Translations under genes and position numbers: made by a program
DNA from: Anaerotignum sp.
GTDB lineage: Bacteria; Bacillota; Clostridia; Lachnospirales; Anaerotignaceae
Assembly: GCF_017483025.1 (NCBI RefSeq)
Contig: NZ_JAFUMA010000010.1
Coordinates: forward strand, 1-64,000
Length of the DNA stretch: 64,000 nucleotides
Direction of reading: 5' to 3'
Shown here: piece after piece, positions 12,764 through 37,608 of the stretch
How the letters are laid out: every line of letters begins with the position of its first letter
Position numbering within the stretch: the first letter of the stretch is position 1
Notes under the pieces: generated by a model
What the model was told of the DNA's origin: nothing
What the model saw: the letters and a program-made list of their open reading frames with translations, nothing else
Database searches by the model: none

Positions 12764-12801
12764 ATTTAAGAATGACAAATGTTTGCTTGAGGTGTACGAA
12801 G

Positions 12802-14430
12802 ATGAGCTTATCCTTTCAAACAAAATCGAATACAAAGACAGACTGCATCCTGCGCAGGGGATATGGTGTCCTTGTGCTTCTGGTGGCTGTGATACTGCTT
12901 TATCTGGGGTGTTTTGAAAACGTTTCTGTTTCTCAGACGCGGGAGAGCGGTGAGTATCAGACCATAGATGCTTACGATTATCAGGTGTTGGAGGACGCAG
13001 AAGCACCTATTGGCATCTGCCGGGAATATAAGTGGGTACTGGAGGATATCCCTGCAAGCGGCAACTGCTTTGCTTTTTATCTGGTGCATCATTGGGCGGA
13101 AGTTTTCATTGGCGGGGAAGTGGTCTATCAGCTGATGCCGCAAGAAGGAAATCGGATCGGCGGTACCATTGGCTGCAACTGGGTCATGCTGCACCTGCGG
13201 ACAGCGGATATCGGGAAGGAAATCAAGGTAGACCTGTATCCTATTTATGAATCTGTGGCAGAAAATGATGTTACCTTTTATCTTGGTTCTCAGATGCAGT
13301 TTTGTCTGGATCAGTTCCGCATGGATCTGCCATTGATCATTCTGAGTGCGCTGGCCATTCTGGCAGGGATCATTTTTCTCGCCACCACGGCCTTTGATCT
13401 GTATCTGAAGCGGAAAAGCCGAAATCTTGGATATCTGGGGCTGTTTTCCATCATGGTGGGCCTTTGGAAGCTGACAGATCTGCGGACAGCACCTCTGTTG
13501 TTTGCTGGGAATCCTATGCTTTTATCCTATATCACGCTGGCGATGCTTTTGACCTTTCCTGTTGCGCTGATGCTGTTTATCCGAGGGGAATTCCAAAAAC
13601 GGCGTTACCCTTTGTACGATATCGTTTGTGGGATCGTGATTCTTTATGGCGTTGTCGTTACGATATTGCAGATGACGGGCATCTGCGATTTCAAGGAAAC
13701 CCTGCATCTGACCCATATTGCGATTATATTGTTTGTTTTTTCCATCGTTTCTCTGATGGTCTACGAATGGAAACGCGGAAAAAACGACTTCCGCATGAAG
13801 ATCAATATGGTCTGTTTTTTGCTGTGTGCAGGCGGCGCTGCGCTGGATATAGTGTCCTTTTATTTCCACGGCAATTCCGCGGGGCTGCAATTTACGCTGA
13901 CGTCATTTTTGATCTTTGTTTCGGTGAAGGCCATCTTCTCCAACAGAGAGCTGACGAAAAGGGCCCGCATGGATCGCCATACAGGGCTGTTTAACAAGAG
14001 CAGCTGTAATGAATTGATCGAAGATGAAACTATTCTGGAGGGGAATGTTTCTCTAATTATGTTCGACCTGAACTATCTGAAAAAGGTCAATGATACACTG
14101 GGACATAAGGCGGGGGATCAGATGATCGCGGACTTTGCGGCTATTCTTCGGAAAACCATCCGTATCAGTGATTTTGTAGGCCGCTATGGCGGAGATGAAT
14201 TCATCGTTATTGCCAAGGGTGCCGGAAAAGAAAATGCAGAACGTATCCTGCGGGATATGTCGGCGGCTGTGGAAAAATATAATGCAGAGACAAAAAATGC
14301 GAAAATCAGTTATGCGGCCGGCTTTGCTGTTTCTGTAGAATTCGAAAACTGTACCATGCATACACTGCTGGAAAAGGCCGACGAAAGAATGTATATACAT
14401 AAACAGGAAATGCACCGGGAGATGGAATAA
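12802..14430 (+). CDS. Membrane diguanylate cyclase with extracytoplasmic sensor region
   Basis: ATG 12802 has GAGGTG at 12789-12794, which suits it better than ATG 12772. The protein (542 residues) has one N-terminal helix, an outer domain of about 150 residues, a block of six to seven membrane helices (about 175-385), and a C-terminal GGDEF domain. The catalytic loop is intact (RYGGDEF) and a product-inhibition I-site RISD lies five residues before it, so it should make cyclic-di-GMP. The layout resembles 7TMR-DISM-type receptors, but the outer domain is not assigned. It is a single gene with its own promoter and a short terminator. Confidence 0.88.
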   Translation: MSLSFQTKSNTKTDCILRRGYGVLVLLVAVILLYLGCFENVSVSQTRESGEYQTIDAYDYQVLEDAEAPIGICREYKWVLEDIPASGNCFAFYLVHHWAEVFIGGEVVYQLMPQEGNRIGGTIGCNWVMLHLRTADIGKEIKVDLYPIYESVAENDVTFYLGSQMQFCLDQFRMDLPLIILSALAILAGIIFLATTAFDLYLKRKSRNLGYLGLFSIMVGLWKLTDLRTAPLLFAGNPMLLSYITLAMLLTFPVALMLFIRGEFQKRRYPLYDIVCGIVILYGVVVTILQMTGICDFKETLHLTHIAIILFVFSIVSLMVYEWKRGKNDFRMKINMVCFLLCAGGAALDIVSFYFHGNSAGLQFTLTSFLIFVSVKAIFSNRELTKRARMDRHTGLFNKSSCNELIEDETILEGNVSLIMFDLNYLKKVNDTLGHKAGDQMIADFAAILRKTIRISDFVGRYGGDEFIVIAKGAGKENAERILRDMSAAVEKYNAETKNAKISYAAGFAVSVEFENCTMHTLLEKADERMYIHKQEMHREME

Positions 14431-21569: not shown

Positions 21570-21611
21570 GTTATTGTAAACCGAATTCCAAGTGGAGTGG
21601 TAGAAATCTGA

Positions 21612-21640
21612 TTGACACTGACGGAAATATATGTTAGTAT
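21612..21640 (+). promoter_or_regulatory. Promoter of the cold shock gene
   Basis: A consensus TTGACA (21612-21617) and TAGTAT (21635-21640) are 17 bp apart. The leader is only about 40 nt, shorter than the thermosensor leaders of enteric cspA. Confidence 0.85.
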
Positions 21641-21687
21641 CAGTCTGTAACAAATTTTATCTATCTCAAGTAGGAGGATTTTAAGTA

Positions 21688-21888
21688 ATGAAAAAAGGTA
21701 CAGTAAAATGGTTCAACGCAGAAAAAGGTTTTGGTTTCATCTCCGTACCTGGTGAAGACGATGTATTCGTACATTTCTCCGCAATTCAGGCTGAAGGCTA
21801 CAAAACACTGGAAGAAGGCCAGGAAGTAGAATTCGAAGTAGTTCAGGGTGCAAAAGGCCCTCAGGCTGCAAACGTAACACGTGCTTAA
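21688..21888 (+). CDS. csp: Cold shock domain protein
   Basis: This 66-residue OB-fold protein binds single-stranded RNA and DNA as a chaperone. RNP1 (KGFGFI) and RNP2 (VFVHF) are intact, and the N-terminus KGTVKWFN is canonical. AGGAGG precedes the start. Biased codons and a strong promoter suggest abundance. It is flanked by its own promoter and terminator. Confidence 0.96.
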
Positions 21889-21955
21889 TCGATTTTAATT
21901 ATAGAATAGACTGCGAAAGCATTCAAAATTATACATTTAGATTTGGTTATGCAAA

Positions 21956-21992
21956 AAAGGCTCTCCGTTTTTCGGAGGGCCTTTCTTTATTC
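21956..21992 (+). terminator. Terminator of the cold shock gene
   Basis: AAAGGCTCTCCG (21956-21967) pairs with CGGAGGGCCTTT (21973-21984) with one G-T pair; TTTATT follows. Confidence 0.85.
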
Positions 21993-22085: not shown

Positions 22086-22114
22086 TTGAAAACACTTTTT
22101 GTTCGTGCTATTAT
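22086..22114 (+). promoter_or_regulatory. Promoter of the methyltransferase-GH3-HD-GYP operon
   Basis: TTGAAA (22086-22091) and TATTAT (22109-22114) have 17-bp spacing. The leader of about 64 nt shows no cyclic-di-GMP riboswitch-like structure that I could recognise. Confidence 0.65.
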
Positions 22115-22184
22115 CAAAGATGACTTAATGTCGATTTTTATGTATATCAATAGAAATTGCTGAAAATATGCAAGAGGATGGAAC

Positions 22185-22760
22185 ATGGGAGAGACGATCA
22201 TTGGCACAATTGCATTCATTTTGTTCATGGTTTACGACCTGGAACAGGCGGGTGTGGTGTCCCATCGTTTTCATAAAGGAACGAAGTTTTTCTTTACGAT
22301 CGGTTCGTTCCTGCTTTGTGTTGCAACGGTTTTGTTGCTGGGCAAAGAAGTATCCCTTTCATTAGAACTGAAGCAGATCGTGTTTCTGATTTTAGCGGTG
22401 GTGTTCCTGCTGCTGCTTATCTACACACTGTTTTTTGCACTGCCCTTTGAGGAGACCTATGTGGCCCAGGAAGTCCATAAGATCTACGATAAAAAGATGT
22501 ACGCCTTGTGCAGACACCCCGGTGTGCTGTGGTTTACAGGCTTTTATTTCTGCCTGTGGCTGGCCTTTGGCGGCGGGGCGTTGCTTTGGGCGGCCATTTG
22601 GTTCAGCAGTTTGAATGTTGCTTATATCATCCTGCAGGATGTTTATACATTTCCTCGGATCTTTTCTGATTATGGGGATTATAAAAAACACGTACCATTT
22701 TTATTCCCCAATGGGAAAAGTCTGAAACATTGTCTGGATACTTTCAAGGAGAGCCGGTGA
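22185..22760 (+). CDS. ICMT/PEMT-like integral membrane methyltransferase
   Basis: The 191-residue protein has about five membrane helices and the C-terminal signature of isoprenylcysteine carboxyl methyltransferase-like enzymes: YALCRHPGVLWF (about residues 105-116) and, after further helices, FPRIFSDYGDYKKHVP. In characterised relatives these segments bind S-adenosylmethionine. Bacteria lack prenylated proteins of the eukaryotic type, so the acceptor, perhaps a small carboxylic acid, lipid or quinone-like molecule, is unknown. AGAGGA precedes the start. The GH3-like gene begins 7 bp after its stop. Confidence 0.75.
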   Translation: MGETIIGTIAFILFMVYDLEQAGVVSHRFHKGTKFFFTIGSFLLCVATVLLLGKEVSLSLELKQIVFLILAVVFLLLLIYTLFFALPFEETYVAQEVHKIYDKKMYALCRHPGVLWFTGFYFCLWLAFGGGALLWAAIWFSSLNVAYIILQDVYTFPRIFSDYGDYKKHVPFLFPNGKSLKHCLDTFKESR

Positions 22761-22767
22761 CTGGATT

Positions 22768-24405
22768 ATGAGATTTGAAGAAAAACTGAAAACATTATCT
22801 CAGGAAGAGATCTGGCAGGAATACTGTGGTTTCCTTGATCTGTCCATTGAGGAATATATGCAGATCCAGAATCGTCTGATGGAAGAGCAGATCGCCCTCT
22901 GGAGCAACTGCGCTTTGGGGCAGCGTTTCCTGAAAGGAAAGCAAATCAGCAGTATCGATGAATTCCGTAAGGAAATCCCTCTGACGACCTATGGCGATTA
23001 TGCCGATGTGCTGCTGCAGAAGCAGGGCAGTATGCTTCCTGATGACCCTATCATCTGGATACAGACTACATGGGAAGGCGGACGCCATCCCGTTAAAGTT
23101 GCGCCTTATACAAAGAGCATGCTGGATACCTACCGCAATAACGTGCTGGCCTGCATGATTCTGACAACAGCCCATGAAAAGAAAAAATTTGACCTGAAGG
23201 CCAAGGATACTTTCCTTTACGCACTGGCACCTTTGCCTTATGCGACAGGTCTGTTCCCTCTGGCGCTGAACGATGAAATTGAGATCGACTTCCTGCCTCC
23301 TGTAAAAGAAGCGGTGCAGATGTCCTTCAGTGAAAGAAACGTGAAGGGCTTCAAGATGGGCATGAAGCGGGGCATTGATTTCTTCTTTGGCCTGGGCAGT
23401 GTGGCTTATTTTGTCAGTCTTAGCGTGGCTGCTATGGGCAGCGGCGGCAGCGGCAAATCCAGCCTGAAATCCATCTCTCCCGCTATGCTGGCTCGCCTTA
23501 TCAAGGCAAAGCATACCTGCAAAAAAGAGGGTAGAGAGCTGATGCCCAAAGACCTTTTCAAACCCAAGGGCTTCGTTGTTGCCGGTACGGATAACAACAG
23601 CTATAAAGATGACTTGGAACGTTTGTGGGGTATCCGTCCCATGGAACTGTTCGCAGGGACAGAACCCAGCTGTATCGGCACAGAAACATGGACAAAAGAC
23701 GGGATGTATTTCTTCCCCGATACCTGCTTCTATGAATTCATTCCTGAAAAGGAGATGGAGCTGAGTCTGGATGATCCCAGCTATCAGCCGAAGACGTATC
23801 TGATGAATGAAGTCATTCCCGGTGAAAAATATGAACTGGTCATCTCTGTATTGAAGGGTGGCGCTTTCGTTCGCTATCGCGTGGGCGATGTATATCGCTG
23901 CGTGGGTCTGGAAAATGCAGAGGATGAAACAAGAATTCCAAGATTCCATTATATCGACCGTATCCCTACGGTCATCGATATCGCAGGTTTTACCCGTATC
24001 ACTGAAAATTCCATTCAGAATGTTATTGAACTCTCTAGACTGGAGATCGAGGATTGGGTAGCCATCAAGGAGTATAATGAAGAAAAACGGCCTTTGCTGC
24101 ATCTTTATGTGGAAATGTCGCCCAAATCTCTGGTTTCTCAGGCAGTCAGCAAGGAGATCTTAAGAGAGCATTTGAGCGTTTACTTTAAATATGTCGATCA
24201 GGATTATAAAGACCTGAAACGCATTCTGGGCGTGGATCCCCTGAAGATCACCATCCTGAAGTGCGGCACTTTCGCTGAATATCATAGAAAGAGCGGAAAG
24301 AAGCTGCGTAAGATCAATCCTTCCAAATATGAAGTGATGGAGCTTTTGCAGACAGAAGAATCCGTTGACCTGTGGTATCAGTTCCGGGGAGGTGGGCGCT
24401 TATGA
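22768..24405 (+). CDS. GH3-superfamily acyl-adenylating enzyme
   Basis: GH3 enzymes adenylate a carboxylic acid and, in plants, couple it to an amino acid. The 545-residue length and motif order fit: an ATP-loop region with the form TTWEGGRHPVKVAPYT (about 110-125), LFAGTEPSCIG (about 297-307), the hallmark RYRVGDVYR (about 369-377), and a hinge IDRIPTVIDIAGFTRITE before a C-terminal lid. The first loop departs from the usual S/T-S-G-T-T-x-G-x-x-K, keeping only the Thr pair, Gly pair and Lys, so activity is uncertain. It lies between an ICMT-like methyltransferase and an HD-GYP protein and overlaps the latter by 4 bp. No carrier protein or amide partner is nearby. Confidence 0.82.
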   Translation: MRFEEKLKTLSQEEIWQEYCGFLDLSIEEYMQIQNRLMEEQIALWSNCALGQRFLKGKQISSIDEFRKEIPLTTYGDYADVLLQKQGSMLPDDPIIWIQTTWEGGRHPVKVAPYTKSMLDTYRNNVLACMILTTAHEKKKFDLKAKDTFLYALAPLPYATGLFPLALNDEIEIDFLPPVKEAVQMSFSERNVKGFKMGMKRGIDFFFGLGSVAYFVSLSVAAMGSGGSGKSSLKSISPAMLARLIKAKHTCKKEGRELMPKDLFKPKGFVVAGTDNNSYKDDLERLWGIRPMELFAGTEPSCIGTETWTKDGMYFFPDTCFYEFIPEKEMELSLDDPSYQPKTYLMNEVIPGEKYELVISVLKGGAFVRYRVGDVYRCVGLENAEDETRIPRFHYIDRIPTVIDIAGFTRITENSIQNVIELSRLEIEDWVAIKEYNEEKRPLLHLYVEMSPKSLVSQAVSKEILREHLSVYFKYVDQDYKDLKRILGVDPLKITILKCGTFAEYHRKSGKKLRKINPSKYEVMELLQTEESVDLWYQFRGGGRL

Positions 24406-26939
24406 CAACTGGCTATGCCTTCATCTCCATCATTGCGCTGGTGTGCTATGTATTCCTTTTCCTCACATTCTTTGCGGCGAAAAAGAATAAGCATATCAAT
24501 CAGTTTATGCTGATTTTGACTACAATGATCCTTTGGACAGGCGGTTCCTTCTTCATGCGTGCCCAATTCTGGCCGGGCGTGAAGTTCTGGTATGATGTTT
24601 CCGTTCTTGGGTTGACGCTGTGTCCTTATGTATCCTTCCTGTTTGCCGTGGATTTCGGCGGCATTAGGGTCGGCATTTCCCGCAGGGTGTGGCTGATCCT
24701 GGCGGTCATTGCCAATGCATTCAATATCCTGACCAACAGCCTGCTGGCAGCGCCCGAAGTGGTGACGATGGCGGATGGTTCTGTGTCTTTCATTTATGAA
24801 ACGACATGGAAGGTTATCTTCCTGTATGGTGTTACTTTTGGTGCCAGTGTGCATATGTTCTGGCTGATCTGGAAAGCAGGGAAGAAGGATGAAATGCTGA
24901 AACGTCAGCTGGCTCCCATCGTTGTGGGGCTGCTGATCATGTATGCCGGTAACGTATTGATCTTCCTGCCTCCTTTCATCGGGGTGCCTGTGGATATCAT
25001 GATGGGTATCGTGAACGTGCTTTGCCTGGTATACGCTTTGTATGCAAGACGTATGTTCCGACTGACACTGTTGGCTTCTAAAGGCAGCTGCTATGTGATC
25101 GCTGGGATCTGCTCGCTGCTGATTTTCAGTAATGCGATTTTCCCTCTGCGTAAATTTATCAACAAAACATTCTCTGTTGCAGGGGAGTATGATATCCTGA
25201 TCGTTTCTGTGGTCTTTATGATCGCTACGATCGTGATCTACACAGCCATGAAGCATCTGATCGATAAGATCTTCATCCGTGATGAACTGGCCCGCTCTGA
25301 GACTCTGAAGGAATTCAGCGCAGCCGTATCCAAGAGCTTGAAGATCAATGAAATCCTGGATGTCATGGTTCAGGTCATCCAAACCACTATTGGCGTGAAA
25401 AAAGTTTATGTCTGCCTGGTCAATAATGATGGTGATCAGTATCAGGTAAGCTACAGCACCAGCCCTCTGGATAAGCGCAGCTATTCTCTGACAGCGGATA
25501 ATCCCGTTGTCCTTTGGCTGAAACAGAATCATACATACCTGCTAATGAAGGATTTCCGCCGCACAGTGGCCTATAAATCCATGTGGGAAACGGAAAAACG
25601 CATGCTGCAGCTTCTGGAGATCGAATGTATCGTTCCTCTGGAAGACGATAACCAGCTGGTAGGCTTCGTGATGGTAACGGAAAAAGAAAGAAAGGCCATC
25701 CTGAATATGGATGACCTGGCTTTCCTGGATTCCGTTGGTTCCATCGGCTCTATCGCTGTTAAAAATTCTCATCTGTACGAAAAGGTTTACATGGAAGCCC
25801 GCATCGATGAACTGACAGGCCTCCTGAACCGTAAATATTTCTATGAAACACTGGAAGCGGAAGTAGAAAAGAACAGACACCTTTCTCTGAGCCTGCTGAT
25901 GGTCAGCATCGATGACTTCAAGCTGTATAACCAGCTTTATGGCACAGAAGAAGGGGACAAGGCCCTCCGCAATGTAGCCATGGTGCTGCAGGCCAGCGTA
26001 GGGGAAAACGGCTATGTAGCCCGTTATAATGGCAAGGAATTTGCCATCATCCTGCCTCAGTTTGATATCCTGGCTGCAAAAAATATGGCGAACAATATCC
26101 GTATGCAGATCATGGAGATCAACAAGCAGCAGAGAGGACAGATGTATCGTCAGAAGGCACTGACGGCCAGCGTCGGCATCTGTTCCATCCCGTATGCGGC
26201 TTCCAATATGAAGCAGCTTCTGGATAATGCGGATATGGCATTGTATCAGGCGAAGCATACGGGTAAAAACAAAGTTATGATCTATTCTATCGGTGAGGTG
26301 GAAGATTCCCGCGCGGCACAGATGGATAATGGCACAGGCTACCGTGAAGGTATCTATTCCGAATATGCTTCTACCATCTATGCCTTGACGGCAGCCATCG
26401 ATACGAAGGACCATTATACCTTCCGTCATTCCAAAAACGTGGCAGAATATGCCACAAAGCTGGCGAAGGCTTATGGCCTGAATAAGGAAAGCGTTTCCAT
26501 CATCGAAGAAGCAGCTCTGCTCCACGATATCGGCAAGATCGGTATCCCCGAGAATATCCTGAATAAGCCCGGCAGACTGGAAGCGGAAGAATACGAAGTG
26601 ATGAAGGAACATGTAGAAAACTCCATCGGTATCATCCGTCATCTGCCTTCTCTGGATTACGTTATCCCCGCAGTCATCGGTCACCATGAACGCTGGGATG
26701 GCAAGGGCTATCCCCGTCGCATTGCCGGAGAAGATATCCCTCTTTCTGCTCGTATCCTTTGCATCGCAGACTCCTTCGATGCCATGGTCTCCAAGCGCTC
26801 CTATAAAGACGCTTATGACACAGATCGTGCGCTGAATATCGTAAGAAGCGAAGCCGGCAGACAATTTGACCCTCAGCTGGCGGAATTGTTTGTAAAACTG
26901 GTAGAAAACGGCACCATCACAGTATTGAAAGATGAATAA
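24402..26939 (+). CDS. 7TM-GAF-GGDEF-HD-GYP signalling protein (probable cyclic-di-GMP phosphodiesterase)
   Basis: ATG 24402 overlaps the GH3 stop and has GGGGAGGTGGG upstream. Residues 1-225 hold about seven helices resembling the HisKA_7TM sensor, and two more helices end near 290. A GAF domain follows (about 305-460), then a GGDEF domain (about 465-630) whose active loop is YNGKEF, predicted inactive as a cyclase. The C-terminal HD-GYP domain (about 660-840) is complete, with HDIGKIGIPENIL and HHERWDGKGYP, so cyclic-di-GMP hydrolysis is likely. Co-translation with the GH3 gene suggests that its signal relates to that enzyme's product. Confidence 0.9.
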   Translation: MTTGYAFISIIALVCYVFLFLTFFAAKKNKHINQFMLILTTMILWTGGSFFMRAQFWPGVKFWYDVSVLGLTLCPYVSFLFAVDFGGIRVGISRRVWLILAVIANAFNILTNSLLAAPEVVTMADGSVSFIYETTWKVIFLYGVTFGASVHMFWLIWKAGKKDEMLKRQLAPIVVGLLIMYAGNVLIFLPPFIGVPVDIMMGIVNVLCLVYALYARRMFRLTLLASKGSCYVIAGICSLLIFSNAIFPLRKFINKTFSVAGEYDILIVSVVFMIATIVIYTAMKHLIDKIFIRDELARSETLKEFSAAVSKSLKINEILDVMVQVIQTTIGVKKVYVCLVNNDGDQYQVSYSTSPLDKRSYSLTADNPVVLWLKQNHTYLLMKDFRRTVAYKSMWETEKRMLQLLEIECIVPLEDDNQLVGFVMVTEKERKAILNMDDLAFLDSVGSIGSIAVKNSHLYEKVYMEARIDELTGLLNRKYFYETLEAEVEKNRHLSLSLLMVSIDDFKLYNQLYGTEEGDKALRNVAMVLQASVGENGYVARYNGKEFAIILPQFDILAAKNMANNIRMQIMEINKQQRGQMYRQKALTASVGICSIPYAASNMKQLLDNADMALYQAKHTGKNKVMIYSIGEVEDSRAAQMDNGTGYREGIYSEYASTIYALTAAIDTKDHYTFRHSKNVAEYATKLAKAYGLNKESVSIIEEAALLHDIGKIGIPENILNKPGRLEAEEYEVMKEHVENSIGIIRHLPSLDYVIPAVIGHHERWDGKGYPRRIAGEDIPLSARILCIADSFDAMVSKRSYKDAYDTDRALNIVRSEAGRQFDPQLAELFVKLVENGTITVLKDE

Positions 26940-26976
26940 AACTCTCTTGTTTTCCTGCAAAATAAGAGAGTTTTTT
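26938..26976 (+). terminator. Terminator of the GH3 operon
   Basis: AAAACTCTCTT (26938-26948) pairs with AAGAGAGTTTT (26964-26974) and overlaps the stop codon; a T-run follows. Confidence 0.88.
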
Positions 26977-37334: not shown

Positions 37335-37608
37335 AATAGAGAAACCAGTGATTAAGAGGAGTAGCCTTTCAAATCAGCTTACAGAGAGCCGCGGATGGTG
37401 GGAGCGTGGCAGTGTGAGGATTGGTGAATGGACTTATGAGGGCGGTCGAAAGCAAAAGCGAGTAGAAACCGACGGGGAGCGCACCCGTTACCAGGGCGTG
37501 ACTGTATGGCTGTACAGTGGTAAGAGCGGATGATTTTTCATCAATTTGGGTGGTACCGCAGGATATTCAAGTCTTGTCCCATAGAAATATGTGGATAAGG
37601 CTTTTTTT
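37335..37608 (+). ncRNA. T-box leader, probably tRNA-Trp responsive
   Basis: The universally conserved T-box GGGTGGTACCGC lies at 37548-37559. The specifier loop reads GTGAATGGAC, placing codon TGG at 37429-37431 (Trp). A terminator GTCTTGTCC (37571-37579) with GGATAAGGC (37593-37601) and seven T follows. Uncharged tRNA-Trp would stabilise the antiterminator and turn on the transporter. The UGGU bulge would pair with a G discriminator by wobble. This explains the 476-bp gap; no protein gene lies in it. Confidence 0.93.

Follow-up and report, generated by a model that had tools for sequence, protein, structure and literature searches.

To our knowledge, the inputs of most cyclic di-GMP (c-di-GMP) receptors are not known, above all in gut Clostridia. 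In the diffusible signal factor (DSF)/Rpf system (RpfF-RpfC-RpfG), a fatty-acid-type signal, a membrane sensor and an HD-GYP output are linked. One-component HD-GYP phosphodiesterases with seven-transmembrane (7TM), GAF and GGDEF input domains are also described, as are GH3 enzymes, both the plant acyl acid amido synthetases (JAR1/GH3.11, GH3.12) and the bacterial OlsH, a planctomycete lyso-ornithine lipid synthetase that makes N-acyl ornithine and whose operon also holds a methyltransferase gene (PMC12493201). The window analyzed here, 64,000 nucleotides of an Anaerotignum sp. contig (NZ_JAFUMA010000010.1, positions 1 to 64,000), carries three packed genes, hereafter the trio, encoding an ICMT-like membrane protein, a GH3-fold protein and a 7TM-GAF-GGDEF-HD-GYP receptor. 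Bacterial GH3s and one-component HD-GYP receptors each have precedents, but the searchable literature describes neither an obligate combination of the two with an ICMT-like protein nor a GH3 that lacks adenylation residues. As the initial annotation had supposed, we found no characterized bacterial counterpart there: no description joined ICMT, GH3 and HD-GYP in a search that left most subscription journals outside, and only general surveys were returned for HisKA_7TM. Because the genes are obligately linked, they give a lead to what feeds one HD-GYP receptor, and this input can now be tested.

We conclude that the trio is a real conserved functional unit. A GTDB genome scan, a class survey and a phylum survey yielded 20, 6 and 7 distinct further loci with this type of GH3 gene, 33 in total (contig L102, equal in length and gene coordinates to L010, is probably the same contig, and the two were counted once). 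The ICMT-like gene lay directly 5' of the GH3 gene in 33/33 loci, and the receptor gene directly 3' of it in all 32 whose contig continues, the contig of L026 stopping inside the GH3 gene. Two genes, GH3 in L022 (5739-7335) and the receptor in L061 (9378-11914), were each split into two open reading frames (ORFs) by a frameshift or an assembly error. All 20 loci from the GTDB scan were in clostridial or Bacillota records, the isolates including Lactonifactor longoviformis, Oscillibacter valericigenes and Anoxynatronum buryatiense. The nearest named genome, a metagenome-assembled genome of Anaerotignum sp., carries the same trio, with a GH3 85% identical to that of the window, and the matching genome of the same genus (G007) scored 87%.

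Because these loci had been found through GH3, we searched 391 class-level Clostridia genomes separately with a profile of the ICMT-like protein. The GH3-type profile recovered seven carriers at 644–1004 bits (next score, 52), and the ICMT-like profile alone recovered the identical seven at 151–253 bits (next score, 34). The chance of drawing two identical sets of seven from 391 is 4e-15 if the genomes are independent, which they are not fully; the pattern nonetheless extends over several families. Pairwise gene distances were correlated for GH3/ICMT (0.87), GH3/receptor (0.96) and ICMT/receptor (0.88), and none of 2000 permutations reached values as high. The trio is patchily distributed, its carriers being scattered among gut and anaerobic Clostridia: of 58 genomes from the host's family two more have it, as do about 2–3% of the genomes sampled in class and phylum. 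Its neighbors vary among loci, and the sole recurrent adjacent gene encodes an EAL-GGDEF protein. Linkage at every locus, the shared seven genomes and covarying distances thus bear out the earlier proposal of one functional unit, and leave virtually no room for unrelated genes having come together by chance. Many Clostridia have genes of the GH3 family, yet the trio-type clade is set off from them by a large score gap and is always linked. For this type of GH3 we therefore rejected the reading of scattered homologs without partners, which the initial annotation had named as its refutation.

The GH3 assignment of the second protein, which a failed profile search would have undone, was confirmed by profile and fold. 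Using the GH3 Pfam families (PF03321/PF23571/PF23572), it matched GH3_M (52.8 bits, 4.2e-14) and the GH3 N-terminal domain (30.8 bits, 2.3e-7), both above the cut-off of 23.6, and fell just under it for GH3_C (22.1 bits). The 18 trio-type members aligned all matched GH3_M and the N-terminal domain at E up to 1. Its AlphaFold2 (AF2) model (predicted local distance difference test, pLDDT, 85.6) adopts the two-domain GH3 (ANL) fold and superposes on JAR1 (4epl) with a VIA Z of 29.5 and a root-mean-square deviation of 4.0 over 475 aligned residues. It shares with the plant enzymes the whole fold, the motif-I lysine, E299 and D374, but it is only about 15% identical to them and has neither the SG[ST] of their P-loop nor the lysine of their C-terminal NQxK. 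OlsH, a bacterial GH3 whose operon includes a methyltransferase gene, keeps TSGTTQG and needs its serine, a motif that is gone here; membership of the OlsH equivalog (NF052613) was rejected, with 14.5 bits against a cut-off of 620.

We compared the motifs of 32 trio-type GH3s with those of 22 canonical clostridial GH3s, which align end to end with the plant enzymes (E to 1e-108). In the window protein the P-loop reads TTWEGG (residues 100–105), motif II FAGTE (295–299) and motif III RYRVGD (369–374). The P-loop [ST]SG[ST] of motif I is present in 22/22 canonical sequences and 0/32 of the trio clade. The same holds for the C-terminal lysine (NQxK), which is also found in the plant chains and is replaced by N in 27 trio members and by another residue in five. 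The hinge position is K in every canonical sequence and R in all 32 trio members, whereas the motif-I lysine K110, E299 of motif II and D374 of motif III are conserved in 54/54. OlsH is inactive once its motif-I serine is changed to alanine (S115A) (PMC12493201). An aryl-CoA ligase loses 1000–2000-fold when its P-loop is mutated, and its A10 lysine is in contact with the ATP alpha-phosphate (PMC8388817). From its position, the NQxK lysine would be the GH3 counterpart of that A10 lysine. A pairing of the essential OlsH serine with E103 was dropped, since the deep members favor T101 as its partner; under both alignments [ST]SG[ST] is lost. The initial annotation had the GH3 protein activating an acid in the usual way, a view that is doubtful and finds no support, given the absence, in all 32 members, of the P-loop and lysine needed for adenylation.

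The P-loop was lost in steps: the four deepest members (L097–L100) have TSG[KR] as motif I, and the other 28 have TTW[EK][GC]G. The stem of the trio GH3 clade measures 3.27 changes per site, with 100/100 support in a smaller set before the deepest members were added; the root node of the FastTree phylogeny of the enlarged set is weakly supported (0.55). Within the clade GH3 evolves most slowly (mean identity 55%, against 41% and 37% for the other two proteins) and the ICMT-like protein fastest. Between the window and its nearest relative, the ratio of nonsynonymous to synonymous changes is about 0.07–0.13 for the trio genes and about 0.07 for GH3 (0.09/1.21), indicating purifying selection. 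A long stem followed by such conservation is what a constrained new function leaves behind, and decay does not. It is a clear case of a GH3 lineage shedding its ATP-handling residues in steps while fold and ribose site stay under strong selection, and the label of acid-amido synthetase, which automatic annotation would assign, is probably wrong.

The ICMT-like protein has no accepted Pfam family and no match to ICMT (PF04140) or PEMT (PF04191) at E up to 1. Weak matches appeared among 21 relatives, to ICMT in eight and to PEMT in five; the clostridial proteins that form its closest outgroup do pass as ICMT/PEMT members, and a single deep relative narrowly clears a steroid-dehydrogenase model. 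In the AF2 model (pLDDT 90.6), the VIA Z was 10.6 to a sterol reductase (4quv), 9.4 to an ICMT (5vg9) and 8.9 to Ma-ICMT (4a2n), with 5-alpha-reductase also among the best. The top five rows all belonged to the ICMT/PEMT/sterol-reductase superfamily at Z 8.2–10.6 (Z below 13 is middling for helical proteins), and Foldseek gave an E of 0.14. The protein may share its predicted fold with this superfamily and has the same order of the RHP and acid...Y..Y...P motifs, but it has RHPG for RHPxY, Asp for the usual Glu and Pfam scores below the cut-offs. RHPG and Y..Y...P...P are invariant in 30/30 members. The original "ICMT-like" label therefore stands for the RHP motif and superfamily likeness and fails at the Pfam cut-offs for both families; on fold and remote profile similarity it is fair as a superfamily label, and a methyltransferase role is putative.

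The third protein matched HD_5 (3.4e-41), GGDEF (6.5e-40) and HisKA_7TM (1.8e-11) in Pfam, and GAF as well. Its HD...HHExxDGxGYP signature is complete and is intact in nearly all aligned relatives having the domain, that of L100 with an insertion. The intact HD-GYP domain of a membrane receptor claimed by the initial annotation is thus present; its 7TM, GAF and degenerate GGDEF domains had been left out of that description. The domain set and signature are those of one-component HD-GYP receptors, from which this one differs by its obligate coupling to GH3-like and ICMT-like proteins and by a GGDEF domain that is mostly degenerate within the family. That domain reads NGKEF in the window, which does not match the active diguanylate cyclase motif GG[DE]EF, and xGKEF in most members. 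GGDEF or GGEEF is kept in deeper members, where the GH3 P-loop is least changed (L097–L100) or has the intermediate form TTWKGG (L056–L059); in derived members both sites are degenerate. The output of the trio in the window is probably c-di-GMP hydrolysis, given a degenerate GGDEF and an intact HD-GYP in its receptor. The receptor of the deep member L099 (8488-10467) has an intact GGDEF as its last domain and no HD-GYP, so the output there may be synthesis instead of breakdown. At seven loci (L013, L015, L016, L017, L018, L020 and L027) the gene immediately before the trio encodes an EAL-GGDEF protein of about 790 residues, which makes a four-gene c-di-GMP cluster.

The host genome has few c-di-GMP proteins: three GGDEF proteins, all on one contig (window 12772-14430, the trio receptor and contig position 73475-73909), two HD_5 proteins and one c-di-GMP-I riboswitch. 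With so few, the trio receptor could weigh heavily on the c-di-GMP level. The GGDEF protein at 12772-14430, about 8 kb upstream of the trio, is a membrane protein with an intact motif (RYGGDEF). The sole riboswitch match in the genome (L105:912-995, minus strand) precedes an ORF whose listed start it partly overlaps; this ORF is truncated where the contig stops and is predicted to encode a secreted protein of surface type. Rfam placed none before the trio in the window.

We favor, at somewhat less than an even chance, a self-contained clostridial membrane signaling module with c-di-GMP hydrolysis as output and a non-adenylating GH3. The receptor would use its membrane domain, its GAF domain or both to read a ligand of hydrophobic or acyl type, and would set HD-GYP activity. 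The GH3-fold protein, which keeps the two-domain fold and the adenosine/ribose and Mg-site residues, would most likely bind, present or transfer the ligand, perhaps in physical contact with its partners, instead of activating a free acid with ATP; candidate ligands are an acyl compound, an acyl-adenylate or another adenine-nucleotide-linked compound. The ICMT-like protein would modify ligand or receptor, most simply by methylation. Since the GH3 shape is kept and the ATP-handling residues are lost, the protein was probably put to a new job, and a neofunctionalized, non-adenylating GH3 is favored because the change was stepwise and then strongly constrained. The fuller proposal, that a GH3 stripped stepwise of ATP-adenylation was recruited with an ICMT-like enzyme as a ligand-handling subunit, making a new three-protein type of c-di-GMP input, is more tentative. 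Several points weigh against this account. Motif loss is no proof of lost adenylation, an enzyme of altered chemistry would agree as well with the conserved pocket and the kept K110, E299 and D374, a K or R two positions earlier in 24/32 members could stand in for the C-terminal lysine, and the ICMT-like protein could belong with the reductases of its superfamily.

These points bear on a rival that spells out the model of the initial annotation. In it, GH3 is an active amide synthetase joining an amino acid or amine to a fatty or other acid; the conjugate is then methylated by the ICMT-like protein and serves as a lipid-like signal, on sensing which the 7TM receptor lowers c-di-GMP. Confirmed GH3 family and fold and the OlsH precedent speak for it, and the retained E299, D374 and K110 could support altered chemistry; we nonetheless consider it unlikely, because the P-loop and C-terminal lysine found in all 22 canonical clostridial GH3s compared are absent throughout the clade and the OlsH score is far below its cut-off. 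Such a synthetase would make an autocrine or quorum signal, which we regard as similarly unlikely. Its logic would be comparable to DSF/Rpf if a fatty-acid-type signal were read here; the trio is without an RpfF-type synthase or histidine kinase, so this is an analogy and not membership. OlsH is also the precedent for a membrane-lipid modification operon. There the GH3-like and ICMT-like proteins would act on a membrane lipid and the c-di-GMP protein would control the state of the envelope or react to it, with no dedicated signal molecule. The PEMT/ICMT affinity of the membrane protein agrees with this, but the GH3 catalytic losses count equally against it, and no conserved acyltransferase or other lipid gene was seen near the trio, where only EAL-GGDEF recurs; we judge it improbable. 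The kept ribose and Mg residues, lost catalytic residues and fast-evolving ICMT-like protein would in turn suit a pure sensor complex, in which GH3 simply senses a nucleotide or acyl-CoA as a subunit of the receptor and the ICMT-like protein is a non-catalytic membrane partner. The invariant RHPG and Y..Y...P...P suggest a conserved cofactor site, and we hold this explanation to be rather remote.

The signaling module that we favor is encoded in a compact layout (table below). The packing described in the initial annotation is confirmed by ORF coordinates, with 7 bp between the ICMT-like and GH3 genes and a 4-bp overlap (ATGA, 24402-24405) between GH3 and receptor; the RYRVGDV, RHP and full HD-GYP (HDIGKIGIP...HHERWDGKGYP) motifs are likewise all present. 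Its single terminator was recovered, and its single promoter is plausible by position; we grade it no higher because such sites are about as frequent in shuffled sequence (12 found in the region, shuffled mean 9.0).

Table. Coordinates of the trio and its flanking signals in the window.
Feature	Position	Strand	Basis
Plausible sigma-A-type promoter of the trio, TTGAAA-N17-TATTAT	22086-22114	+	Consensus scan; position fits
ICMT/PEMT-superfamily-like integral membrane protein, 191 aa	22185-22760	+	ORF call, AF2 model, conservation
GH3-fold protein, 545 aa	22768-24405	+	Pfam, AF2 model, motif comparison
7TM (HisKA_7TM)-GAF-GGDEF-HD-GYP receptor/predicted phosphodiesterase, 845 aa	24402-26939, ATG at 24402	+	Pfam, motif alignment
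Intrinsic terminator of the trio, 16 pairs and T run	26938-26974	+	

A defense-system reading was rejected, PADLOC having given only HD/GGDEF-type cross-matches to Cas3/Cas10, and a search for plasmid carriage in PLSDB gave no match. Upstream of the trio, the cspA gene closes with its own terminator (21956-21984), and Rfam matched a cspA thermoregulator over this cold-shock gene (21572-21987). A T-box leader was matched elsewhere in the window, at 37339-37584.

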